A stretch of 64,000 nucleotides of DNA from Dongia mobilis. GTDB taxonomy: Bacteria > Pseudomonadota > Alphaproteobacteria > Dongiales > Dongiaceae. The DNA lies in assembly GCF_004363235.1 (NCBI RefSeq), contig NZ_SNYW01000008.1, positions 62,001 to 126,000 on the forward strand, written 5' to 3'. A model generated the notes under the pieces. The model ran no database searches. It was not told the origin of the DNA and saw only the letters and a list, made by a program, of their open reading frames with translations. Positions 24,447-62,678 of this stretch are shown piece by piece (position 1 is the stretch's first letter; each line of letters begins with the position of its first letter). A program made the translations under genes and the position numbers.

Positions 24447-24595
24447 GGGAGGGGTCGCCCGGAATCCTATTTGCGCGACTTGGCCGCCACTGGTCGAATT
24501 GGCGATGGTTGTCGCGCAAAACCCACCATTGATTTCCCGATCTGCACATGCAGGCGGTGCCGCTGGCGCATAGCCGGCATCAATGGGGATCAATC

Positions 24596-24847
24596 ATGGA
24601 AATGCGAAAGACCTGTACGCGCAACAACCCGGCCGCGCCGCATCTGGTCCAGAAAAACTCCGGCAAAAGGATTCCGGCCGCGCAGGTGCAGGATGTTCGC
24701 CATGTCATCCAGGAACTGGTGCGCGAGGTGACCCACGACCTCGCCACGCGCAGCGGCAATCCCGGCGTTCTTCTCGACACGGAGCTCAATTTCGAGGCGC
24801 AGGCGCGAGTACTTCGCAATGCTTTCAACGCTAAGCTGGGTGCTTAG
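24596..24847 (+). CDS. Small hypothetical protein (83 aa)
   Basis: ATG 24596 follows a GGGGAT element. The N-terminus is basic and polar (MRKTCTRNNPAAPHLVQKN). The C-terminal half is a predicted helix pair (VQDVRHVIQELVREVTHDLA, NFEAQARVLRNAFNAKLGA). No family is recognised. It is the last gene with host-like composition before the AT-rich segment that begins about 24880. Confidence 0.55.
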   Translation: MEMRKTCTRNNPAAPHLVQKNSGKRIPAAQVQDVRHVIQELVREVTHDLATRSGNPGVLLDTELNFEAQARVLRNAFNAKLGA

Positions 24848-24971
24848 GCTTGATCTTCGCTGATCTTGGCAACGGCGGACGGTGAGACATCCGCTGTCCG
24901 TCAGCCGCAGCACCTTGCGGAGTAGGCATTTGCCTGATTCGAACCACAGCTGCTTCACGAAATTTTGCAGC

Positions 24972-25781
24972 TCACACTTGCCGCAATCGCCCCGTAATTC
25001 TCTCCTTATATGGACTCAGTTCTCTCGGCAGCTTGTCAAGGATTGCAATCATTTCAGAATCGAAATCCGAAGGCTCAATTTGATTCTTCGTCTGTAGCTC
25101 CTCAATCTTCTTCAGAGCCCTCTCGGCGTTCCAGATATACCCAATTTCTAACGCATGACTGACAACTTCCATCGAAGTTGTGAGTACATTAGCGGGAACA
25201 TCTCTTTGTTCCCACAGGAACACCTCAAACTCAGTGATCTTAAGTAGCATCTCCTTTTCCAACTTCGAATTGCGATCTCTAAGTGAAGCAACTCGCTTTT
25301 GAATTTCCTGTAACTCCTTAGAGACCGAAGCGATCTTTCCTTCAACTGAATTTGTAATAGCAGAGTCAATCGCGGCCATATGTATTTCATGAAGCTTCTG
25401 CAAGTCGCCGCGAATTTCCGCAGCTTTGCTCTGAACTTCAGCCAGCAGAACTGAACTCAAAGCTTGTTTATCTCGCTCATACACCCGGTAATTTGTAAAC
25501 CAACTATAGCCGACCAACGCCACCATCGTGCCAGCTACAACCCCCAATGCCCAATAGACTGTAGCAATCATTCGATCATTTGACTGACCTAAGATTGCGA
25601 ACCACTGTTGTATCAGAGCGTCATTCTCAATTGATGAGGTATTTTGCTTATCGACTGACAGCCCCTCCGTTGAGCTCATGTTAGATTCATCGGCAACCTG
25701 TGCTTTAGCGGTTACCAAAAAAGAAACCGTTGTAAAGAAGAGCAAACTCCAGAAAATAAAAAAGGCACGGACCAGTTTCAC
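24972..25781 (-). CDS. AT-rich membrane-anchored coiled-coil protein
   Basis: 269 residues from GTG 25781, with GGAG 7 bases upstream. It has a signal peptide (FFIFWSLLFFTTVSFLVTAKA, cleavage near 27), one membrane span at 71-95 and a long cytoplasmic or periplasmic coiled coil (~100-190: EVQSKAAEIRGDLQKLHEIH, KELQEIQKRVASLRDRNSKLE). No family is recognised. Base composition and codon use are clearly more AT-rich than all neighbours, which suggests horizontal acquisition. It lies just downstream of the comM 3' part on the same strand. It could be a small anti-phage or envelope gene, but nothing proves this. Confidence 0.8.
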   Translation of the reverse strand: MKLVRAFFIFWSLLFFTTVSFLVTAKAQVADESNMSSTEGLSVDKQNTSSIENDALIQQWFAILGQSNDRMIATVYWALGVVAGTMVALVGYSWFTNYRVYERDKQALSSVLLAEVQSKAAEIRGDLQKLHEIHMAAIDSAITNSVEGKIASVSKELQEIQKRVASLRDRNSKLEKEMLLKITEFEVFLWEQRDVPANVLTTSMEVVSHALEIGYIWNAERALKKIEELQTKNQIEPSDFDSEMIAILDKLPRELSPYKERITGRLRQV

Positions 25782-25805
25782 TTAACGTCTCCTGTGTCAA
25801 ACTCC

Positions 25806-25821
25806 TGCTGAACGTTCAGCA
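25806..25821. promoter_or_regulatory. 16-bp perfect palindrome between comM and the AT-rich gene
   Basis: TGCTGAACGTTCAGCA is its own reverse complement. It sits 24 bp upstream of the GTG start of the AT-rich gene and 9 bp from the comM stop. No T run follows on either strand, so an operator or a recombination scar fits better than a terminator. Confidence 0.55.
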
Positions 25822-25830
25822 TGCGTAGAA

Positions 25831-27252
25831 CTAAGCCGCCCTTGCCGGCGCCACGCGGCGGTAGCCGAGTGCTTCGGCGATGTGCAGCGCGCGGACGTCC
25901 TCGCTGCCCGCGAGATCGGCCAGCGTGCGGGCGACGCGCAGGACGCGGTGATAGCCGCGGGCGGAGAGGCGGAATTTCTCGATGGCCTGCGTCAGCAGCC
26001 GGCGGCCTTCGGCATCGGGGGCGGCGAGGTTTTCGAGGAGGTCGCCATCGGCTTCGGCATTGGTGCGGATGTTGAGCTCGGCATAGCGCGCCGCCTGGCA
26101 GGCGCGGGCGGCGGCGATGCGCGCCGCCACCTGCGCGCTCCCTTCCGCCGGCGGCGGCAAAGTGAGGTCGGCGGCCGAGACCGCCGGCACGTCGACATGG
26201 AGATCGATGCGGTCGAAGATCGGCCCCGAGATGCGCGCCTGGTAATCGGCGGCACATTTCGGCGCCTTGCCGCAGCCCAGCGCGGGATCGCCGAGATGCC
26301 CGCAGCGGCAGGGGTTCATCGCCGCCACCACCTGCACGCGGGCCGGATACGTGACATGCGCATTGGCGCGGGCGATGGAGACGCGGCCCGTCTCCATCGG
26401 CTGGCGCAACGCCTCCAGGGTGCTGCGCTGGAATTCCGGCAGCTCGTCGAGGAAGAGGATTCCGAGATGGGCGAGGCTGATCTCCCCCGGCCGCGCCCGC
26501 AAACCACCACCCACCAGCGCCGGGAGCGAGGCCGAATGATGCGGGTCGCGAAAGGGCCGGCGCCTCAGCAGCTTGCCCTCGGAAAGATTGCCGGCGAGGG
26601 AATGGATCATGGTGACTTCCAGCGCCTCGGCCGGCGAGAGCGGCGGCAGCAGTCCGGGGAGGCGCTGCGCCAGCATGGATTTCCCCGAGCCCGGCGGACC
26701 CACCATCAAGAGATTGTGCCCGCCCGCCGCCGCGATCTCGAGCGCGCGCTTGGCGCTCTCCTGGCCCTTGATGTCCCTAAGGTCGAGCGCCTGGCCCTCA
26801 TCCGCGGCGATTCTCGGCTCCGGCGGGCTCAGCAGCTGCTCGCCCTTGAGGTGATGGATGAGGGCGAGGAGATTGGCGGGTGCCAGCACCTCGATCTCGC
26901 CCGCCCAGGCCGCCTCGCCACCCTGCGCCCGGGGGCAGATGAGGCCGAGATCCGCCGCCGCGGCATGAAGCGCCGCCGGCAGCACGCCGGCCACACTGGC
27001 GACCGAGCCGTCGAGGCCAAGCTCGCCCAGCACCACATAGGGCTCCAGCGCCTTCGCCTCGATCACCCCCATGGCGGCGAGCAGGCCGAGGGCGATGGGC
27101 AAATCGAAATGAGAGCCCTCTTTCAGAAGATCGGCCGGGGCGAGATTCACCGTGATGCGTTTGGGCGGCAGCGCCAGGCCGATCGCCGTCAGGGCGGCGC
27201 GCACCCGCTCGCGACTCTCCCCCACCGCCTTGTCCGGGAGACCGACGAGGGT
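25831..27252 (-). pseudogene. comM: comM (Mg-chelatase-like helicase), 3' part cut off by the island
   Basis: 470 native codons remain, from VGLPDKAVGESRERVRAAL onwards, ending at TAG 25831. The ChlI-like N-terminal domain, AAA+ domain (Walker A GPPGSGKS, Walker B LFLDELPEF, arginine-rich RVQVVAAMNPCRCGH) and C-terminal domain (YHRVLRVARTLADLAG) are intact. The first 33 codons are 5.6 kb away at 32809-32907. Codons ahead of the junction here are island DNA; a TTG at 27276 could in principle start a truncated protein. ComM is a branch-migration helicase of natural transformation; its loss would impair that process. Confidence 0.93.
27248..27252. other. Attachment-site core, comM-3' side
   Basis: AGGGT shared with 32810-32814. 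On the minus strand the comM sequence resumes after it as ACCCTCGTCGGTCTCCCG, coding for TLVGLP. GAGACC at 27268-27273 lies 15 bp inside the element. Confidence 0.8.
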
Positions 27253-27445
27253 CCATGTCAAGCCCTGGAGACCCAAAATGACAGGGTAGAACGAGTCTAA
27301 AGGAGAAGGTCACAGTCACCGAGAGTGGTCGGGGTCGAATGACGACGCCTTAGACAAATGAAATCACCCCCCTCTGCATCGGCCAAGGCAACTTCCCGCT
27401 AGCGAGGGGGGGCGGGGGAATCCATATGCGCACGGAGGGAAATAC

Positions 27446-27649
27446 ATGCTCGCGAATCACAGTCCCATTTTAAAGCGGGGATTCATCGGCTTCTGGGCAA
27501 CTCTAATGCTTACCGTTACTTCGTCTCGGGCTTTTGCTTCTTGTTGGGGAAAAGCGTGTGATGACGACCTTCGCATGGGTGCATTCGGGGCGATCCTTAC
27601 AGTCGTCATGTTGCTGGTCGGGCTGTTTCTCCATCTGCGCGATAGGTAG
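27446..27649 (+). CDS. Small membrane protein of the island (67 aa)
   Basis: GGAGGG lies 6 bases before ATG 27446. There are two hydrophobic segments, residues ~12-31 (GFIGFWATLMLTVTSSRAFA, which may be a signal peptide ending at ASC) and ~46-63 (FGAILTVVMLLVGLFLHL), separated by CWGKACDDDLRMG. No family is recognised. It reads outwards to the restriction-modification genes, but 340 bp separate them. Confidence 0.6.
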   Translation: MLANHSPILKRGFIGFWATLMLTVTSSRAFASCWGKACDDDLRMGAFGAILTVVMLLVGLFLHLRDR

Positions 27650-27991
27650 CTGCCAGCCGTCAGCTTTGGCGAGGATTCGAAAAGTCGTTAGCCAATTACA
27701 CTCTGCCACCTTGGCGAAAGCGTTGGTATCTCGGGGAAACCGCACGAGCACGAGATAATTCCTTACGATGAACCTGGAAATCTTGTCAGTCCAAGCATTT
27801 AGTCGCAACCGACCAATCGCTCGGACTCTTGACTTCTTGGGCGTAGAGCGCACCCTATTCTCCGAGTCGCGTGCGCGTCGGGGAGAGGCTATTCCACACA
27901 CCGTTCCACTGCCGGACATAGTACCGGAGGGGGAAGGAGTCCCTGGTGAATCGCGGCGGTCGGACAGACTACTGCCTATAGAGGAGCAATC
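27650..27991. other. 342-bp stretch upstream of the methyltransferase
   Basis: Open frames exist on both strands (for example plus 27768-28091, minus 27503-28012), but they are low-complexity, overlap real genes and lack good ribosome binding sites. A promoter for the restriction-modification pair is expected here. No C-protein (controller) gene is visible. Confidence 0.5.
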
Positions 27992-28900
27992 ATGCATACC
28001 AACGGCGCGCAACGACGGAACGATTCCCGGATTGCCTGTCGCGACAACCTCTCGTTCATGCGTTCGTTGGCGGATGAGTCAATGCGGCTGATTGTTACGT
28101 CACCGCCGTACAATATCGGGAAGTCATATGAAACCCGAATCACGTTGGACGACTACATTGCGGGCCAGGATAAGGTCATAGGCGAATGCGTCCGATTGCT
28201 CGACAAGCAGGGTTCTCTGTGCTGGCAGATTGGGAATCACGTTCAAGGGGGCGAAATTTTCCCGTTGGATGTCGTTCTTTATCCCATCTTCCGCAAATAC
28301 AATTTGAAGCTCCGAAACCGAATTGTCTGGCACTTTGAGCACGGACTGCATTGCTCGAAACGCCTCTCGGGTCGCTACGAAACCATTATGTGGTTCACGA
28401 AGTCAGATGACTACGTATTCAACCTCGATGCTATTAGAGTGCCGCCCAAGTATCCTGGGAAGAAGTACTATAAAGGCCCGAAGGCGGGCCAACTGTCCTG
28501 TAATCCTCTCGGCAAGAACCCTGGTGACGTATGGATTTTTCCGAACGTTAAAAACAACCATGTTGAAAAGACCATTCACCCCTGCCAGTTCCCGGTCGAA
28601 TTAGTCGAACGTCTCGTCCTATCACTTACGGAACCGGGTGACGCAGTGCTCGATCCTTATATGGGCGTGGGTTCGTCAGCGGTTGCCGCCGAGATGCACG
28701 GGCGGGCGGGGTATGGTTGTGACGTCGTTAAAGAGTACGTTGAGATCGCGAAAGACCGATTGAAGCAGCTTAGGAACAAGACACTGAAGACGCGCCCCAT
28801 GACTCGTCCGGTTTACGATCCGGCAAAGCCTCGTGGCGGACAACCTGACATGGATCGAGAAGACAATGTCGTGTCGATGGCGGCGATGGCCGCAGAATGA
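27992..28900 (+). CDS. Type II DNA methyltransferase, beta class, probably N4-cytosine
   Basis: 302 residues, with AGGAG 5 bases before ATG 27992. The catalytic motif IV reads TSPPYNIG (residues 36-43) and comes before the SAM motif I region (LDPYMGVGSSAVAAEMHGR, near 220-240), the order of the beta class. SPPY is typical of N4-cytosine enzymes, whereas N6-adenine enzymes usually have DPPY. Its stop codon overlaps the start of the endonuclease gene (ATGA at 28897-28900). It would protect DNA from the partner nuclease. The C-terminal ~35 residues are low-complexity. Confidence 0.9.
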   Translation: MHTNGAQRRNDSRIACRDNLSFMRSLADESMRLIVTSPPYNIGKSYETRITLDDYIAGQDKVIGECVRLLDKQGSLCWQIGNHVQGGEIFPLDVVLYPIFRKYNLKLRNRIVWHFEHGLHCSKRLSGRYETIMWFTKSDDYVFNLDAIRVPPKYPGKKYYKGPKAGQLSCNPLGKNPGDVWIFPNVKNNHVEKTIHPCQFPVELVERLVLSLTEPGDAVLDPYMGVGSSAVAAEMHGRAGYGCDVVKEYVEIAKDRLKQLRNKTLKTRPMTRPVYDPAKPRGGQPDMDREDNVVSMAAMAAE

Positions 28901-29631
28901 AGTTGTCGGTCTACAGCTATCGATACGCGCAGGAAATCCTCGAACACCCAAACAATGTGGGCGCCTGGAACGAGATCAAGTCGGTTCTTCAGGAGGCGCC
29001 GGTCTTTATCTATCCGGGGAAAAGCACCAAGAGCAAAAAGCTCAAAATCGTTCAGCAGCTAATGAACACCTATTTCGACAGGCGCTTCGCTGTTGATCTT
29101 GGGTGGAAGTATCATCCGCTCGCTACCGCAATTAAAAACTCCAACTTGGCAGCGGACTTCCAGAAGCAATTCGGGAACCTCACCATTCAGGCTGAAATTC
29201 AGTTCGGCAACATGGCACGGTGGTACTCCGATATCTTCAAGCTACAGGCGGCATATTCCAACTCGCTTATTCAGCTTGGGTTGCTTGTCGTGCCAATGGC
29301 CGAAATGGCTAAGGTAACAGACTCCAACGTGGCGCAGTTCGAGCGAGCTTCTCGTGAACTACCAGCGGCAAATCTGTCGATCACACTGCCAATCATGTTG
29401 GTCGGGCTTGAACAGGATGCTCACACGCCGGAAGTAGACGTTCGCGAGTGCGCTTTCGCAAGCCTCAAGGATATCGTCGGCAAGGGGAACACTGAGAATC
29501 GCTGGCGAATCATCAATGGTTATCTCGCGGGCGTACCAATGAAGGACATTGGGCCTCACAGCCCAACAGGCCCCATGCTAGAAACCGCACCCGAGGAAGA
29601 GGAAGAAGAAGCGAGCGGTAGCGCACCTTAG
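28897..29631 (+). CDS. BglII/BstYI-like type II restriction endonuclease
   Basis: 244 residues overlapping the methyltransferase by ATGA. Central motif AEIQFGNMARWYSDIFKLQ contains Glu100-x-Gln102, the ExQ active-site variant known from BglII (where Asp84, Glu93 and Gln95 bind metal). Asp87 in AADFQKQFGN may be the partner acid, although its spacing to Glu100 is 13 rather than 9. Coupling with an SPPY (N4-cytosine) methyltransferase also fits a BglII-type system. A GATC-centred site such as AGATCT or RGATCY is therefore a reasonable guess. The C-terminus is acidic (EEEEEE-like). Confidence 0.78.
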   Translation: MKLSVYSYRYAQEILEHPNNVGAWNEIKSVLQEAPVFIYPGKSTKSKKLKIVQQLMNTYFDRRFAVDLGWKYHPLATAIKNSNLAADFQKQFGNLTIQAEIQFGNMARWYSDIFKLQAAYSNSLIQLGLLVVPMAEMAKVTDSNVAQFERASRELPAANLSITLPIMLVGLEQDAHTPEVDVRECAFASLKDIVGKGNTENRWRIINGYLAGVPMKDIGPHSPTGPMLETAPEEEEEEASGSAP

Positions 29632-29709
29632 ACCACCGATTTACGATCAGCGCCCATTTTACCTGCTTCGCCGCCGCTGCTTCCACAATGTGGGCTTTGC
29701 TGTCGCCCT

Positions 29710-30096
29710 CTAAGCTGCCGATTTCTCTTCCGATGCCGTTACGGCTGGGCGTCTGGAATATCCCCGTCCGACCGTTAGGTTGTCCCGTCGAAGATTGAGG
29801 CCGTTGCCGTCGTGGTACGTGACGCGCTGGCCCCTCTTGGCTTGGGTGAGAAGGCGGGCGATGGGAACTTTCCGGCCATCAACCCACCCGACCACATAGA
29901 GGTGCCCCTGCCCATCGCTGTTCAAGCATGGGCGGACGATGCCGAATTGGTCGCGGAGGGCCGCGAGGTCAGCGGCGTAAATCTGGAACGATCCACCTTC
30001 GACCTCTACGATTGCCACCTTCCGCCCATTGGGGCTGCTGAAGAGGCGGTAGGGGGCAGGGGAACGGGGTCGGAAGGTTCGATTTGGATGGGTCAT
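29710..30096 (-). CDS. HNH-like protein of the island
   Basis: 128 residues from ATG 30096, preceded by AGGA. Residues ~95-112 read VTYHDGNGLNLRRDNLTVG, which matches the second half of an HNH or AP2/HNH homing-type nuclease (D-H-x-D-G-N-x-x-x-N-x-R-x-x-N-L), but Tyr replaces the first acidic residue before His. The N-terminal part is beta-rich (KVAIVEVEGGSFQIYAADLAAL). It may be a DNA-binding or nuclease accessory protein, or a decayed homing endonuclease. It is convergent with the endonuclease gene. Confidence 0.65.
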   Translation of the reverse strand: MTHPNRTFRPRSPAPYRLFSSPNGRKVAIVEVEGGSFQIYAADLAALRDQFGIVRPCLNSDGQGHLYVVGWVDGRKVPIARLLTQAKRGQRVTYHDGNGLNLRRDNLTVGRGYSRRPAVTASEEKSAA

Positions 30097-30240
30097 AGAG
30101 GGTCCTGTCAGGAATGAGTCCTCGCTGCCCGTGCGGGAGTCGCTGGGCAGGGGGTGCGTTGTTTCGGGTAGGGGTGGTGCGGAAGCGCCCAGAGGCCGCC
30201 AGAGGAGTCCTGAGGGGCCGTTGTGGCGTTGGTTAGTCTA

Positions 30241-30339
30241 GGGGCCACGGGTTGGTATCGAGCAACCCTTCCAAGGCCCCCAGCACTAACGCCGCCTGAA
30301 GCCCAGCGAGATTACCCCCAGGTCAGAACTGGGGGTAAT
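30241..30339. other. Two strong hairpins in the island
   Basis: Hairpin 1 has outer arms GGGGCC (30241-30246) and GGCCCC (30275-30280) and inner arms GGGTTG (30249-30254) and CAACCC (30263-30268). Hairpin 2 has ATTACCCCCAG (30311-30321) paired perfectly with CTGGGGGTAAT (30329-30339) around a 7-base loop. They lie just beyond the stop of the minus-strand gene at 30368. No T run follows, so simple intrinsic termination is not supported. Confidence 0.6.
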
Positions 30340-30367
30340 GGTGGAGGAGGGGTTGGCGGGACGCTCT

Positions 30368-30751
30368 CTATTTGCGACTGACGAACTCATTCATCAATTC
30401 ATCAGCCAGGATGACCGCAGTGTCCTTCGGGTCCGGCAGGGGGGTCTCTCTCGACTTGGGAAGTCTCACCCCTTCCAACATGTCCACCAACAGCCCTGGG
30501 TCAAAATCGTCGATCATGATGGCGGCCCGCATAACCGCTCGGATCACGCCGGGCCGGGAGGGGCGGCTGCCGTCCGTGGTCAGGGGGCGCAGTGTTTCTT
30601 GGAGCTTATGGAACATGGCCACGTCCTCGACCGTCGGAGCCATGATGACTTCTCGGTTCTGAGTGCGGCGGGTGGCATGTTTGGGCGTTGGGTAGGTGAT
30701 GGGCTTCAACCCTTCGGCCCCTGTGAGATCGTATAGGTCCCAAGACCTCAT
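30368..30751 (-). CDS. Hypothetical island protein (127 aa)
   Basis: ATG 30751 overlaps the stop of the upstream 72-residue gene (ATGA), so the two are translationally coupled. The product is soluble and mostly helical: APTVEDVAMFHKLQETLRPL, RPGVIRAVMRAAIMIDDFDP, DTAVILADELMNEFVSRK. No family is recognised. Co-expression with a ribbon-helix-helix-like protein suggests a two-component regulatory or antitoxin-toxin-type pair, but no toxin motif is visible. Confidence 0.65.
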   Translation of the reverse strand: MRSWDLYDLTGAEGLKPITYPTPKHATRRTQNREVIMAPTVEDVAMFHKLQETLRPLTTDGSRPSRPGVIRAVMRAAIMIDDFDPGLLVDMLEGVRLPKSRETPLPDPKDTAVILADELMNEFVSRK

Positions 30752-30966
30752 TGTTTCCCCTTGGTGCCATTGGGGGACAAGAGGGACTCGACGTGGTCGA
30801 GAAGGTTACGACCCACCAGCCCACCCACAAGGTCTAGGGCATATCGGATAGCGGATGACCTGTCGGGATAACGAATGCTGTCGCGCTGGGAGAGGGCGCT
30901 GGTGATGGTCTTAAAGACGGCCATCTCGGGATTGGACATCCGCACATTAAGGACGTGCGGTCGCAC
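30748..30966 (-). CDS. Ribbon-helix-helix-like small protein
   Basis: 72 residues. Another possible start is ATG 30939 (MSNPEMAVFKTITSAL). The middle (RDSIRYPDRSSAIRYALDLVGGLVG) has the strand-helix-helix pattern of RHH DNA-binding proteins, with RSSAIRYALD as the first helix. It would be a transcriptional repressor or plasmid/ICE regulator. It is the first gene of a two-gene minus-strand unit. A pair of 38-bp direct repeats lies 85-175 bp upstream, a plausible operator. Confidence 0.55.
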   Translation of the reverse strand: MRPHVLNVRMSNPEMAVFKTITSALSQRDSIRYPDRSSAIRYALDLVGGLVGRNLLDHVESLLSPNGTKGKQ

Positions 30967-31050
30967 TGAGTGCAGTTAAGCCTCCTAGTGTATGACGGTA
31001 AAACGGGGGGTGAGGAGTACGTCTCCCCAGAAAAAGCCGTGGCTGCCCCT

Positions 31051-31141
31051 AGGTATCGCACGGGGCCTAGCGATAGGTGGATTTGAAAGCGCACCCTACC
31101 CTCAGGTATCGCAGGGGGTCCTTCCGTTAGGTGGATTTAAA
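31051..31141. repeat. Two 38-bp imperfect direct repeats (possible operator)
   Basis: Copies at 31051-31088 and 31104-31141 share AGGTATCGCA at one end and TAGGTGGATTT(G/A)AAA at the other, with a variable middle; the period is 53 bp. They lie between the 3' end of the recombinase gene and the start of the RHH-like gene, in non-coding DNA. Confidence 0.75.
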
Positions 31142-31185
31142 TGTCCAGAGACGGTCCTGCCTCGGGTTTTGAGGCATCCTGCCTG

Positions 31186-32757
31186 TCACTGAGCGGCGGC
31201 TGGGGCTTTCAGGTATTCCTCGTCGGGCCAGCCGTATTGTAGTTCTGAGGTGCCCCCATGGTGCCAATGGAGCACCACCTTACCCCACCGCCAATCGACC
31301 TCCACCCCCTCCACAAGCTGTCGTAGCTGGTGATTGGTGGCGGGTATGTCGAGCGAGGCGGAGACTAGAAGGGACACGAGGTTGTCCACCCGCTTGATCA
31401 GGGTTGGGGCGCTGGCCTGGGCGCGAGCGGTAAGGAGCGTGTCTCGACGGGCCTTGTTCAAGCCGATTGCGCTTTCTAGCGACCGGATGCGTTCTCGGAT
31501 GGACGGTGAAGAGGTGTGGGTTAGCTGGTCGAGCAAGACATCAATGTTCTCTTCCGCCCCCGCTATAGCCATCTCCAACGAATCCAATTCATCGTCGATC
31601 TCGCCTTCCCGCTGTGCGGGCGCGGGCATCGTCTCCCGCAGTTGTCTCGCTCGATCTACGAGGCACCTTTCGACTTCACTGAGGACAACACTACGATAGA
31701 CGCAGCCAGCGCCGGTCTTGGCACGGTTGCAGACCAGATAGGGATTCCCGTACTTCCCATGCTTCTTTCCGTGAGACTTGCGGGTCATGGTGCCACCACA
31801 CAACGGACACCGCGCGAGACCAGCCAGGATGCTTTGGACCTCGTGGGCCGCATGGCGACCGCGCTTAGGAGACTTGGTGTTGGCGATAGCCTGAACAGTT
31901 CGATACGTCTCAACGTCCACCACGGCGGGATAGTAGTTTTCGACGGGGTCGAGAGGCTTCCGAACCTTCTTGTTGTTGTCGTATTCAAGCTCGTGCGGCA
32001 CGTATGTTCCGATCACCGCAGGGTTAACCAAAATCTTCTTCACGTAGCTTTCGTACCAGCGGTCGGCTTTCCGATCCGCAGTCTCGAAGACTGGCACGTT
32101 CTCTCGATTCAAAGTCTCTGTGATCGTGAGATAACCGGCCCCCGCTGCTCGCATCTCGTAAATGCGCTTCACCACCTCAGCCCGAGCCTCGATAACTGTC
32201 CATTGGCGCTTTTCACGGTCGAGGATTAACCAGCTTGGACCCATTGCCGTGAGGACCCTTTCGGCTGCCTTGGCGCGGCGTCCCTTCCAAGATTCCTTTA
32301 CCCGCACCCCCTTCGACACGCTTTCTTCGTTGGCGCGGATCATGATCCCCAGCGAGATGAAAAGCTGATAGGGATTGGCGGCAATGGATTCCTTTGAATA
32401 GACTTGCTTGTCTGTCAGGGTAACGATCACCACGCCGCTCTCTATGATCATCGTGAACAGACCGAGTGCAGACATCACCTGTTGACGGCTCACGCGGTCC
32501 AGCGATTCCACTATCAAATAGCTGCCAGCTTCAATCCGCCCTTCTTCGACAAGATCGAGAAAGGCTCTCAGCGCCCCACGATTCGCGTTCCGGCCCCGGT
32601 AGGCTGAAACCCCGAGGTCCTGGAACGTCAGTGTCACGTCAAGGTCAAGACCGTGCTCTCTGGCGTAGCGAGCCGCATTTTCCGATTGTCGGCGGAATGA
32701 ATCCCCCTGCATTTGCTCCGGGGTCGAGAATCGAAGATAAGAGTAAGCCTTCGGCAT
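31186..32757 (-). CDS. Large serine recombinase (integrase) of the island
   Basis: 523 residues. The resolvase domain (1-~150) has the nucleophile Ser11 in SYLRFSTPEQ, then the Arg-rich region VESLDRVSRQ. A Recombinase domain follows (~165-280, GYLTITETLNRENVPVF), then a zinc ribbon (CPLCGGTMTRK ... CNRAKTGAGC), a coiled coil (~375-430) and a C-terminal tail. By family it recombines short attB and attP sites through a 2-bp staggered cut. Its start is 52 bp from the attachment core and 40 bp after the comM fragment stop, in the same direction as comM. It is therefore likely read from the comM promoter while integrated. Confidence 0.95.
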   Translation of the reverse strand: MPKAYSYLRFSTPEQMQGDSFRRQSENAARYAREHGLDLDVTLTFQDLGVSAYRGRNANRGALRAFLDLVEEGRIEAGSYLIVESLDRVSRQQVMSALGLFTMIIESGVVIVTLTDKQVYSKESIAANPYQLFISLGIMIRANEESVSKGVRVKESWKGRRAKAAERVLTAMGPSWLILDREKRQWTVIEARAEVVKRIYEMRAAGAGYLTITETLNRENVPVFETADRKADRWYESYVKKILVNPAVIGTYVPHELEYDNNKKVRKPLDPVENYYPAVVDVETYRTVQAIANTKSPKRGRHAAHEVQSILAGLARCPLCGGTMTRKSHGKKHGKYGNPYLVCNRAKTGAGCVYRSVVLSEVERCLVDRARQLRETMPAPAQREGEIDDELDSLEMAIAGAEENIDVLLDQLTHTSSPSIRERIRSLESAIGLNKARRDTLLTARAQASAPTLIKRVDNLVSLLVSASLDIPATNHQLRQLVEGVEVDWRWGKVVLHWHHGGTSELQYGWPDEEYLKAPAAAQ

Positions 32758-32796
32758 GGGGTTCCTCGTGGGGGCGCGGTAGATATCACGAGGTCT

Positions 32797-32907
32797 CTAC
32801 AGCCGCAACAGGGTAAAGGCCGGCATCCCGCCCGAGACCTGCACCTGCACATCCACGGGACGGACATCGACGCCCTCGAATGCCACCGTGCGGATGCGCG
32901 CGACCAT
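32797..32907 (-). pseudogene. comM: comM, 5' fragment
   Basis: ATG at 32907 (minus strand) opens 36 codons ending in TAG at 32797. The first 33 codons (start MVARIRTVAFEGVDV, ending SGGMPAFTL) match the conserved ComM N-terminus. After that, three codons are element DNA before the stop. The 3' part is at 25831-27247. The fragment was never called a gene by size, but its fit to the missing ComM N-terminus is exact in frame and position. Confidence 0.93.
32810..32814. other. Attachment-site core, comM-5' side
   Basis: AGGGT identical to 27248-27252. GGTCTC at 32792-32797 lies 12 bp inside the element and is the inverse of GAGACC at the other end, so a circular form would carry a dyad around the core. 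Confidence 0.8.
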
Positions 32908-61865: not shown

Positions 61866-62678
61866 ATGAACAGCCGTTCCGACCGCATGATCCGCGCCCT
61901 CATCTGGGCCTGGGCCAGCGCCATCATCCTCTTCATGTATCTGCCGGCCATCGGCCTGCTGCTCGCTTCCAGCACTTCTTCGCGCTATTTCATCTTTCCG
62001 ATCCAGCGCTGGGGCTTCGACTGGTGGCAGAAGACCTTCGTCTCGCTGGAGATCCACCAGCTGTTCAAGACTTCCTTCGCCATTGCCGGCTCGGTCACCG
62101 TGATCGCCGTGGTGATCGCGCTCTTCGGCGCGCTCGCCTTCGCCCGCTATGACTGGAAGGGGCGCGGGATCTTCCAGAAGATCGTGCTGCTGCCGATCTT
62201 CTTTCCGCAGACCGTGCTGGGCCTCGCCCTCCTGCTCTGGTTCAACGCGCTCGGCCTGCAGATGTCGTGGCAGACGGCGGTCTTCGCGCATCTGGTCTGG
62301 ATCATCCCGGTCTGCACGCTGGTCATTTCGATCCAGGTCTATTCCTTCGACCCGGCCCTGGAAGAGGCGGCGTTCGATCTGGGCGCCAGCCGCTTCCAGG
62401 TGTTCCGCGAGGTGACGCTGCCGGTGCTGTTTCCAGGCATCTTCTCCGGTGCGCTTTTCGCCTTCCTGCTCTCCTGGGGCAATTTCCCGCTTTCGCTCTA
62501 CACCACCGGCGCCGACACGACGCTGCCCGAATATCTTTATTCCAAGATGATCGCCGGCTACACGCCGGGCGTCCCGGTGCTTGGCACCGCCTCGACGCTG
62601 GGCGCCGGAATCCTGCTGCTCTGCGGCTATCTCCTCATCGTCTACCTGCGCCGCCGCCGCTCGGCGGATGGCGCCTGA
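61866..62678 (+). CDS. Pot-type ABC importer permease 2
   Basis: 270 residues, 4 bp after permease 1. Six membrane segments and an EAA loop (EAAFDLGASRFQVFREVTLPVLFPGIFSG) are seen. It is PotC-like and makes a heterodimer with permease 1. Confidence 0.92.
   Translation: MNSRSDRMIRALIWAWASAIILFMYLPAIGLLLASSTSSRYFIFPIQRWGFDWWQKTFVSLEIHQLFKTSFAIAGSVTVIAVVIALFGALAFARYDWKGRGIFQKIVLLPIFFPQTVLGLALLLWFNALGLQMSWQTAVFAHLVWIIPVCTLVISIQVYSFDPALEEAAFDLGASRFQVFREVTLPVLFPGIFSGALFAFLLSWGNFPLSLYTTGADTTLPEYLYSKMIAGYTPGVPVLGTASTLGAGILLLCGYLLIVYLRRRRSADGA

Follow-up and report, generated by a model that had tools for sequence, protein, structure and literature searches.

A large serine recombinase island splits comM at codon 32 in Dongia mobilis, probably at a near-cognate of the Walker A attachment site

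The comM gene family is among the commonest targets of large serine recombinases (LSRs), and Durrant et al. 2022 assigned 12.4% of predicted site-specific integrases to the Mg chelatase/ATP-dependent protease gene (PMC10083194). Loss of comM lowers natural transformation in Acinetobacter baumannii (PMC11472951), and the choice of site by LSRs within this common target therefore bears on the conflict between mobile elements and their hosts. Here we describe a 5.56-kb island that splits comM in Dongia mobilis (NCBI RefSeq assembly GCF_004363235.1, contig NZ_SNYW01000008.1). The window is the whole 64,000-nt stretch analysed, positions 62,001–126,000 of the forward strand, and the coordinates below are counted within it. 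The LSR-carrying elements of Durrant et al. split the same gene, but the accessible text of that study states no position within it; the usual position in our sample is the sequence coding for the Walker A motif, whereas the window island lies at codon 32 (PMC10083194). The sr1WO recombinases of Wolbachia phage WO mostly use the magnesium chelatase gene family and, as here, a serine recombinase insertion leaves pieces of the gene on both sides; those elements are prophages, in contrast to a 5.6-kb restriction island (PMC9203015). Repeated insertion into comM by cargo-bearing elements is also seen with AbaR/Tn6022 and Tsy, but Tn6022 and Tsy enter at Walker B, and the Tn7-like or tyrosine-recombinase machinery, guided there by TnsF, has no counterpart in the island (PMC10293859). 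The dusA islands give their target a new 5′ end and leave the old one as a remnant, much as comM appears in three relatives considered below (G001, G003 and G008), but they use another integrase family and another target gene, and the window island leaves comM split (PMC4482086). Croucher et al. 2016 discussed comM insertions as a conflict with transformation, the same transformation-blocking idea for the same gene, and reported two distinct sites for mobile genetic elements in comFA; the comM insertions in that account, however, share one integrase and an orthologous location, and no LSR at codon 32 figures in its accessible portions (PMC4774983). Insertion of LSRs into comM is already known, but the codon-32 site seems new: no description of this site or of its register was found in the literature searched, which left supplements outside and is no proof of absence.

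The island probably entered comM by the action of its own LSR at codons 32–33, a near-cognate second attB to the Walker A site. On the minus strand, the comM 5′ fragment (32813..32907; codon 1 to the first two bases of codon 32) encodes MVARIRTVAFEGVDVRPVDVQVQVSGGMPAFT, that is, ComM from M1 into codon 32, and was recognized by translation and by its match to the intact comM of relatives. The 3′ portion, beginning in codon 32 and including the stop (25831..27252, minus strand), was identified by translation, a comM search of the genome, Pfam and NCBIfam; a TTG at 27276 is a possible start of a truncated open reading frame (ORF) for it. The island, which measures 5,562 bp from one flanking copy of AGGGT (ACCCT on the minus strand) to the same point in the other, has its left copy in attL at 32810..32814 and its right copy in attR at 27248..27252; within these, the crossover dinucleotide favoured by the symmetry test described below is AC, at 32814–32813 and 27252–27251. 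In silico removal of the island gives a complete comM of 504 codons plus a stop, with no internal stops, and its product is ComM/YifB according to Pfam Mg_chelatase, ChlI and Mg_chelatase_C and NCBIfam TIGR00368, each over its cut-off. As far as the sequence itself can tell, the anatomy of the island, its junctions and the intact reading frame of the empty site are as given here. The Walker A region of the window comM is undamaged. The split would be expected to abolish ComM function, and the host genome (14 contigs) contains no second comM, only the two pieces in the window.

These results agree with a preliminary description of the window in placing the ComM N-terminus on the minus strand at the 32907 side and the remainder beyond the opposite junction, in the AGGGT shared by both junctions and in the restoration of a full in-frame ComM by excision. 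A comM copy elsewhere in the genome, which that description named as a refuting finding, was absent, and the comparison it proposed with island-free relatives returned an unbroken comM in G001, G003, G005 and G006. Its prediction of ACCCT at the empty site was borne out in part: G008, of the same family, has it, while G001, G003, G004 and G006 have ACGCT there, a silent change of the Thr codon. The 5-bp identity it regarded as a base-exact junction is real but need not be the recombination core; AC is the best-supported crossover, and the CCT matches besides. Insertion by an LSR, as it proposed, fits the precise comM junctions and the recombinase domains listed next, and the site does differ from that of AbaR/Tn6022, being codon 32 here against Walker B in the literature.

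The LSR (523 aa; 31186..32757, minus strand) contains the Pfam domains Resolvase (2.5e-17), Recombinase (3e-15) and Zn_ribbon_recom (7.5e-9), all three over their cut-offs, and matches the integrase phrog_95 (1.1e-75). Its start codon lies ~55 bp inside the left junction and is codirectional with comM. The comM leader continues as an open reading frame to codon 36 and then meets a stop, and the LSR may therefore be transcribed from the comM promoter. As a single-protein query, the LSR found no relative in genome_contigs or viral_contigs, and no solved structure was matched by sequence at E 0.001.

Searching 385 genomes of the class with the window LSR (E 1e-30) gave matches in eight, the window's own included. 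Five of the seven others adjoin comM (G200, G391, G392, G373 and G030), with comM matches that end or start at about codons 210–220; the remaining two (G161 and G078) have no comM within the 1.5-kb LSR flanks. An alignment of six LSRs served as the follow-up query and matched 1 of 17 genomes in the order of G000 (the window), 2 of 43 in the order of G391 (G391 and G415), 1 of 76 in the order of G200 (G200 itself), 36 of 398 genomes in the phylum, window included, and 25 loci in viral contigs. In the 61 loci fetched, which include some repeats of one genome and three loci from plasmid records, comM adjoins the LSR in 11, so that most of the examined LSRs of the wider group were not seen next to comM; 17 of the 47 phylum-search rows had no locus and stand outside these counts, and the flanks of the three plasmid-borne LSRs contain no comM. 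Thirteen distinct LSRs are lodged in comM, window included: 11 near codon 213, in Walker A (G200, G391, G392, G373, G030, G767, G785, G737, G647, G766 and the viral locus L189), and two at codon 32, namely those of the window and of G415. In G415, comM reads MVARINTVAFQGVDTLDIDVQVQIAGGLPAFTM and then exits the gene, with the LSR directly behind and genes matching RlmN, argininosuccinate synthase and NnrU downstream. Six congeners of D. mobilis were also searched (G001–G006); comM is broken elsewhere in G004, near codon 214, and G002 gave no comM match. The Walker A element of G391 carries a gene with a CoiA-like (competence protein) nuclease domain (L068:6135-6953).

Crossovers were located by way of the dinucleotides that occupy one comM position in both attL and attR; for each, the implied attP was scored for mirror symmetry over 22 positions. 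In seven of the nine Walker A elements with both junctions, the best register was bases 1–2 of codon 213, with scores out of 22 of 16 (G767), 18 (G785), 15 (G647, dinucleotide TT), 17 (G392), 14 (G200), 18 (G030) and 9 (G766); random best-of-8 draws from window DNA reached 14 or more in 9 of 2,000. G391 and G373 fail the strict rule, and by eye their half-sites mirror around codon 213 with one dinucleotide mismatch. The Walker A centres and the positions of the relatives are thus placed at the level of sequence comparison. Codon 213 is TTG in the window genome, G009, G013 and G015, and CTG in G001, G003, G005, G006, G012 and G014. Given these crossovers and the AC of codon 32 in the window, both centres occupy bases 1–2 of a codon that lies two ahead of the V of a VGxP stretch, which is VGLPDKA for codon 32 and VGPPGSGK for Walker A. 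Because codon 32 stands in the same register to this second VGxP-coding stretch, it is most readily interpreted as a near-cognate attB, the second in the gene. How far the two sites resemble each other was assessed in 73 comM sequences, a few genomes being represented twice, left from 110 candidates by a filter that removed those in which no single long frame contained both motifs: identity between the flanks of the two sites is 48.6% at zero shift versus at most 38.9% at 24 other shifts. Scored with a Walker A weight matrix, the codon-32 position is in the best 30 of about 2,900 in 71 of the 73 sequences and first in four; that of the window ranks 15th of 2,913.

The tree of 35 LSRs has many long branches. 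The two codon-32 LSRs, from the window and G415, do not group; the nearest rows to the window LSR are Walker A LSRs, in a weakly supported grouping, and the G415 LSR joins that of G391 (codon 213) with support 98/93. Nor do the codon-213 rows form one clade (8 changes).

These data suggest the following course of events. The attP of the 5.56-kb element would have recombined with an attB at comM codons 32–33 (PAF-T-L-VGLPDKA) through the element's own LSR. That integration would have split comM and placed the LSR gene just behind the comM start codons, along with a cargo consisting of a BglII/BstYI-like type II restriction–modification pair. The LSR would belong to a loose group with many members in the comM Walker A sequence (L-M-VGPPGSGKS, centre at codon 213); compared with those Walker A elements, the window island has a related LSR, but its insertion is not at the codons before VGPPGSGK. 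Codon 32 would then be a near-cognate second attB used by at least two non-grouping LSRs. In this two-site model, the Walker A site is well supported and the codon-32 site moderately so. A second site in the same register would amount to a testable attB rule, in which the crossover dinucleotide keeps a set spacing from a coding motif.

Breaks at codon 32 also occur beside intact copies of comM. Two congeners, G001 and G003, contain a displaced comM 5′ end that breaks at codon 32, the junction of the window, with an intact comM 1.0 and 2.1 kb downstream, respectively. Between the displaced and intact copies of these two genomes are a DUF4279 protein and an HD protein with a PADLOC dGTPase match; no LSR match was found in these stretches. 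The displaced copy of G003 exits comM right after the AC of the window and that of G001 one base later, and the two element ends agree at 14 of 16 positions. Because the genomes are congeners, both fossils may stem from one event. The G001 half-site agrees with that of the Walker A element G392 at 11 of 16 positions (P 0.0005) and the G003 half-site at 9 (P 0.03). The P′ half of the window has 9 of 18 positions in common with G001 and 9 of 18 with G003; at their opposite ends, the G001 and G003 elements showed no mirrored version of the P′ motif. Two displaced 5′ copies are present in a Magnetospirillum metagenome-assembled genome (MAG; L138). The first departs from comM at codon 32, where its half-site resembles that of G767 (10/16, P 0.006), and picks up again at codon 179 about 600 bp further along; given this resumption, it may derive from an older Walker A copy that now contains other DNA. 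In G008, G066, G094, G196, L076 and L144, displaced 5′ copies break at other points. Displaced and intact copies start to resemble each other at the start codon or a few bases from it in G003, G008, G066, L138 (both copies) and L076, and further upstream in G001, G094 and G196, as though an element had brought a ComM 5′ coding fragment that took the place of the host's.

From these arrangements a broader picture can be offered, tentatively and as one that may well prove wrong. The comM gene would have two same-register sites, each two codons before a VGxP stretch and usable by one LSR group, whose members would have switched between them at least twice. Some elements would carry a ComM 5′ start fragment and so exchange the beginning of the gene without inactivating it, repeated use would leave displaced 5′ ends ahead of an intact comM, and the window island would represent the form that leaves the gene unrepaired. 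If some elements do rebuild comM, killing the gene is not always to the advantage of the element.

Other rearrangements were seen at comM. In L032, L033, L034, L057, L058, L061, L076, L138 and L144, a comM that is either intact or cut off by the contig end is preceded by an additional, displaced comM 5′ end, and other genes lie in the interval. In L061:4108-6513 (G196), the gene between the displaced 5′ part, which runs to codon 213, and the intact comM encodes an 801-aa N6 methyltransferase with an HsdR-N-like stretch. Splits of comM at about codons 242 or 305 in L063, L064 and L039 are accompanied by IS1595-family transposases (PF12762) and by a companion ORF of ~145 aa without a convincing family match; the split in L039 also holds a DNA methyltransferase. 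L103, L115 and L066 are assigned to this type by ORF resemblance only, L066 through the companion ORF alone. In G807 (L235 and L223), comM residues 1–111 and 63–499 are encoded ~33 kb apart on one contig and overlap, which suggests another insertion or a duplication.

Several observations weigh against a near-cognate site at codon 32. The best register of the window, AC of codon 32, scores 10 of 22, an ordinary value equalled by 743 of 2,000 random best-of-8 draws. Over positions 8–22, 9 of 15 are mirrored (P 0.02), six of them consecutively (GAGACC; P 0.004 when this run is counted too), but this restriction was chosen after the 22-position test, and the significance for the window comes from it only. 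The likeness of the two sites is partly due to their shared VGxP codons. At zero shift, the P′ half of the window agrees at fewer than 9 of 18 positions with its counterpart in G200, the nearest LSR, and the G415 P′ half matches none of the Walker A half-sites (best 5/16, P 0.84). The window LSR joins that of G200 (codon 213) at 43% identity with weak support (88/60), and the codon-32 label, with two changes on starred branches alone, is reached as low in 500 of 500 shuffles, there being two such rows, so the tree speaks only against a single codon-32 clade. The comM of G415 ends in PAFTM, which a native comM could also have; the genome offers no intact comM for comparison, and the break is placed only to within a few bases. 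The 3′ part was not found in G415, which thus offers one junction only, and this MAG is 88% complete with 7% contamination. An excised form was seen for no element. Finally, an LSR joining unlike attP and attB supplies no coding left half by itself, which leaves the doubled 5′ ends unexplained.

Part of this evidence would suit an LSR that did insert at codon 32 but at a site unrelated to Walker A, the register reflecting mere proximity to VGxP and the two specificities having arisen separately for a favoured gene. The P′ halves of the window and G415 have no clear match among the Walker A half-sites, the identity between the sites is largely that of the VGxP codons, and unrelated elements also pick comM, at Walker B. 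If the window centre is AC, however, the register is the same to the base, and the fossil half-site of G001 resembles that of a Walker A element, G392, beyond chance; we regard separate specificities as somewhat unlikely. Similarly, the LSR-less elements with the same codon-32 break in G001 and G003 could point to a different recombinase acting in trans, or the present boundaries could result from the later partial loss of a larger element, such as a prophage, in keeping with a methyltransferase 73% identical to those of Burkholderia phages. Such an origin is improbable, given that the island is complete between precise junctions and that its LSR is intact and ~55 bp from the junction, like those of other comM LSR elements.

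Two further explanations were rejected. An assembly or binning artefact that joined a foreign island to comM is very improbable: both junctions lie within a 615-kb contig of a genome of 14 contigs listed as 100% complete with 0.03% contamination, and G001 and G003 independently break at the same place. The 5-bp identity at both ends, together with comM being a known Tn6022 target, could suggest a transposon, either Tn7-like (AbaR/Tn6022) or of another kind, that duplicated 5 bp of its target. We give this the least credence, since no Tns or DDE protein was found among the scanned island ORFs, the site is codon 32 and not Walker B, and the mirrored GAGACC lies 16–21 bp inside and is not terminal. 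The LSR of the island may also excise it.

The cargo of the island includes, on the plus strand, an N6/N4 DNA methyltransferase (302 aa; 27992..28900; Pfam N6_N4_Mtase 2.6e-51, PADLOC MTase_II) and a BglII/BstYI-like type II restriction endonuclease (244 aa; 28897..29631; Pfam Endonuc-BglII 6.2e-9, 36.2 bits against a cut-off of 26, with a weak BstYI match at E 0.007). The two genes are adjacent with a 4-bp overlap and, by gene content, form a type II restriction–modification pair, with putative restriction activity. The BglII/BstYI family cleaves and methylates at a GATC-centred site. The Burkholderia phages whose methyltransferases resemble that of the island are DC1 and BcepIL02; in BcepIL02, the gene after the methyltransferase carries the annotation "putative type II restriction endonuclease", and its product matches the island endonuclease (30% over 91 positions). 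The endonuclease had no match in plasmids or viral contigs.

The other island ORFs are small. On the minus strand, next to the LSR, are ORFs of 72 aa (30748..30966; no match in Pfam, NCBIfam and phrog scans), 127 aa (30368..30751; none over curated cut-offs in Pfam and NCBIfam, none in phrog and PADLOC) and 128 aa (29710..30096; none over curated cut-offs in Pfam, none in NCBIfam, phrog and PADLOC). A possible ORF of 67 aa on the plus strand (27446..27649) has a weak Pfam DUF3611 match under the cut-off. The G+C content of the island is under that of most of the flanks, and that of the stretch at ~24,500–26,000 is lower still. This stretch (about 0.49–0.51; window 24500-26000) lies just 3′ of comM, outside the island, and contains a 269-aa ORF (24972-25781).

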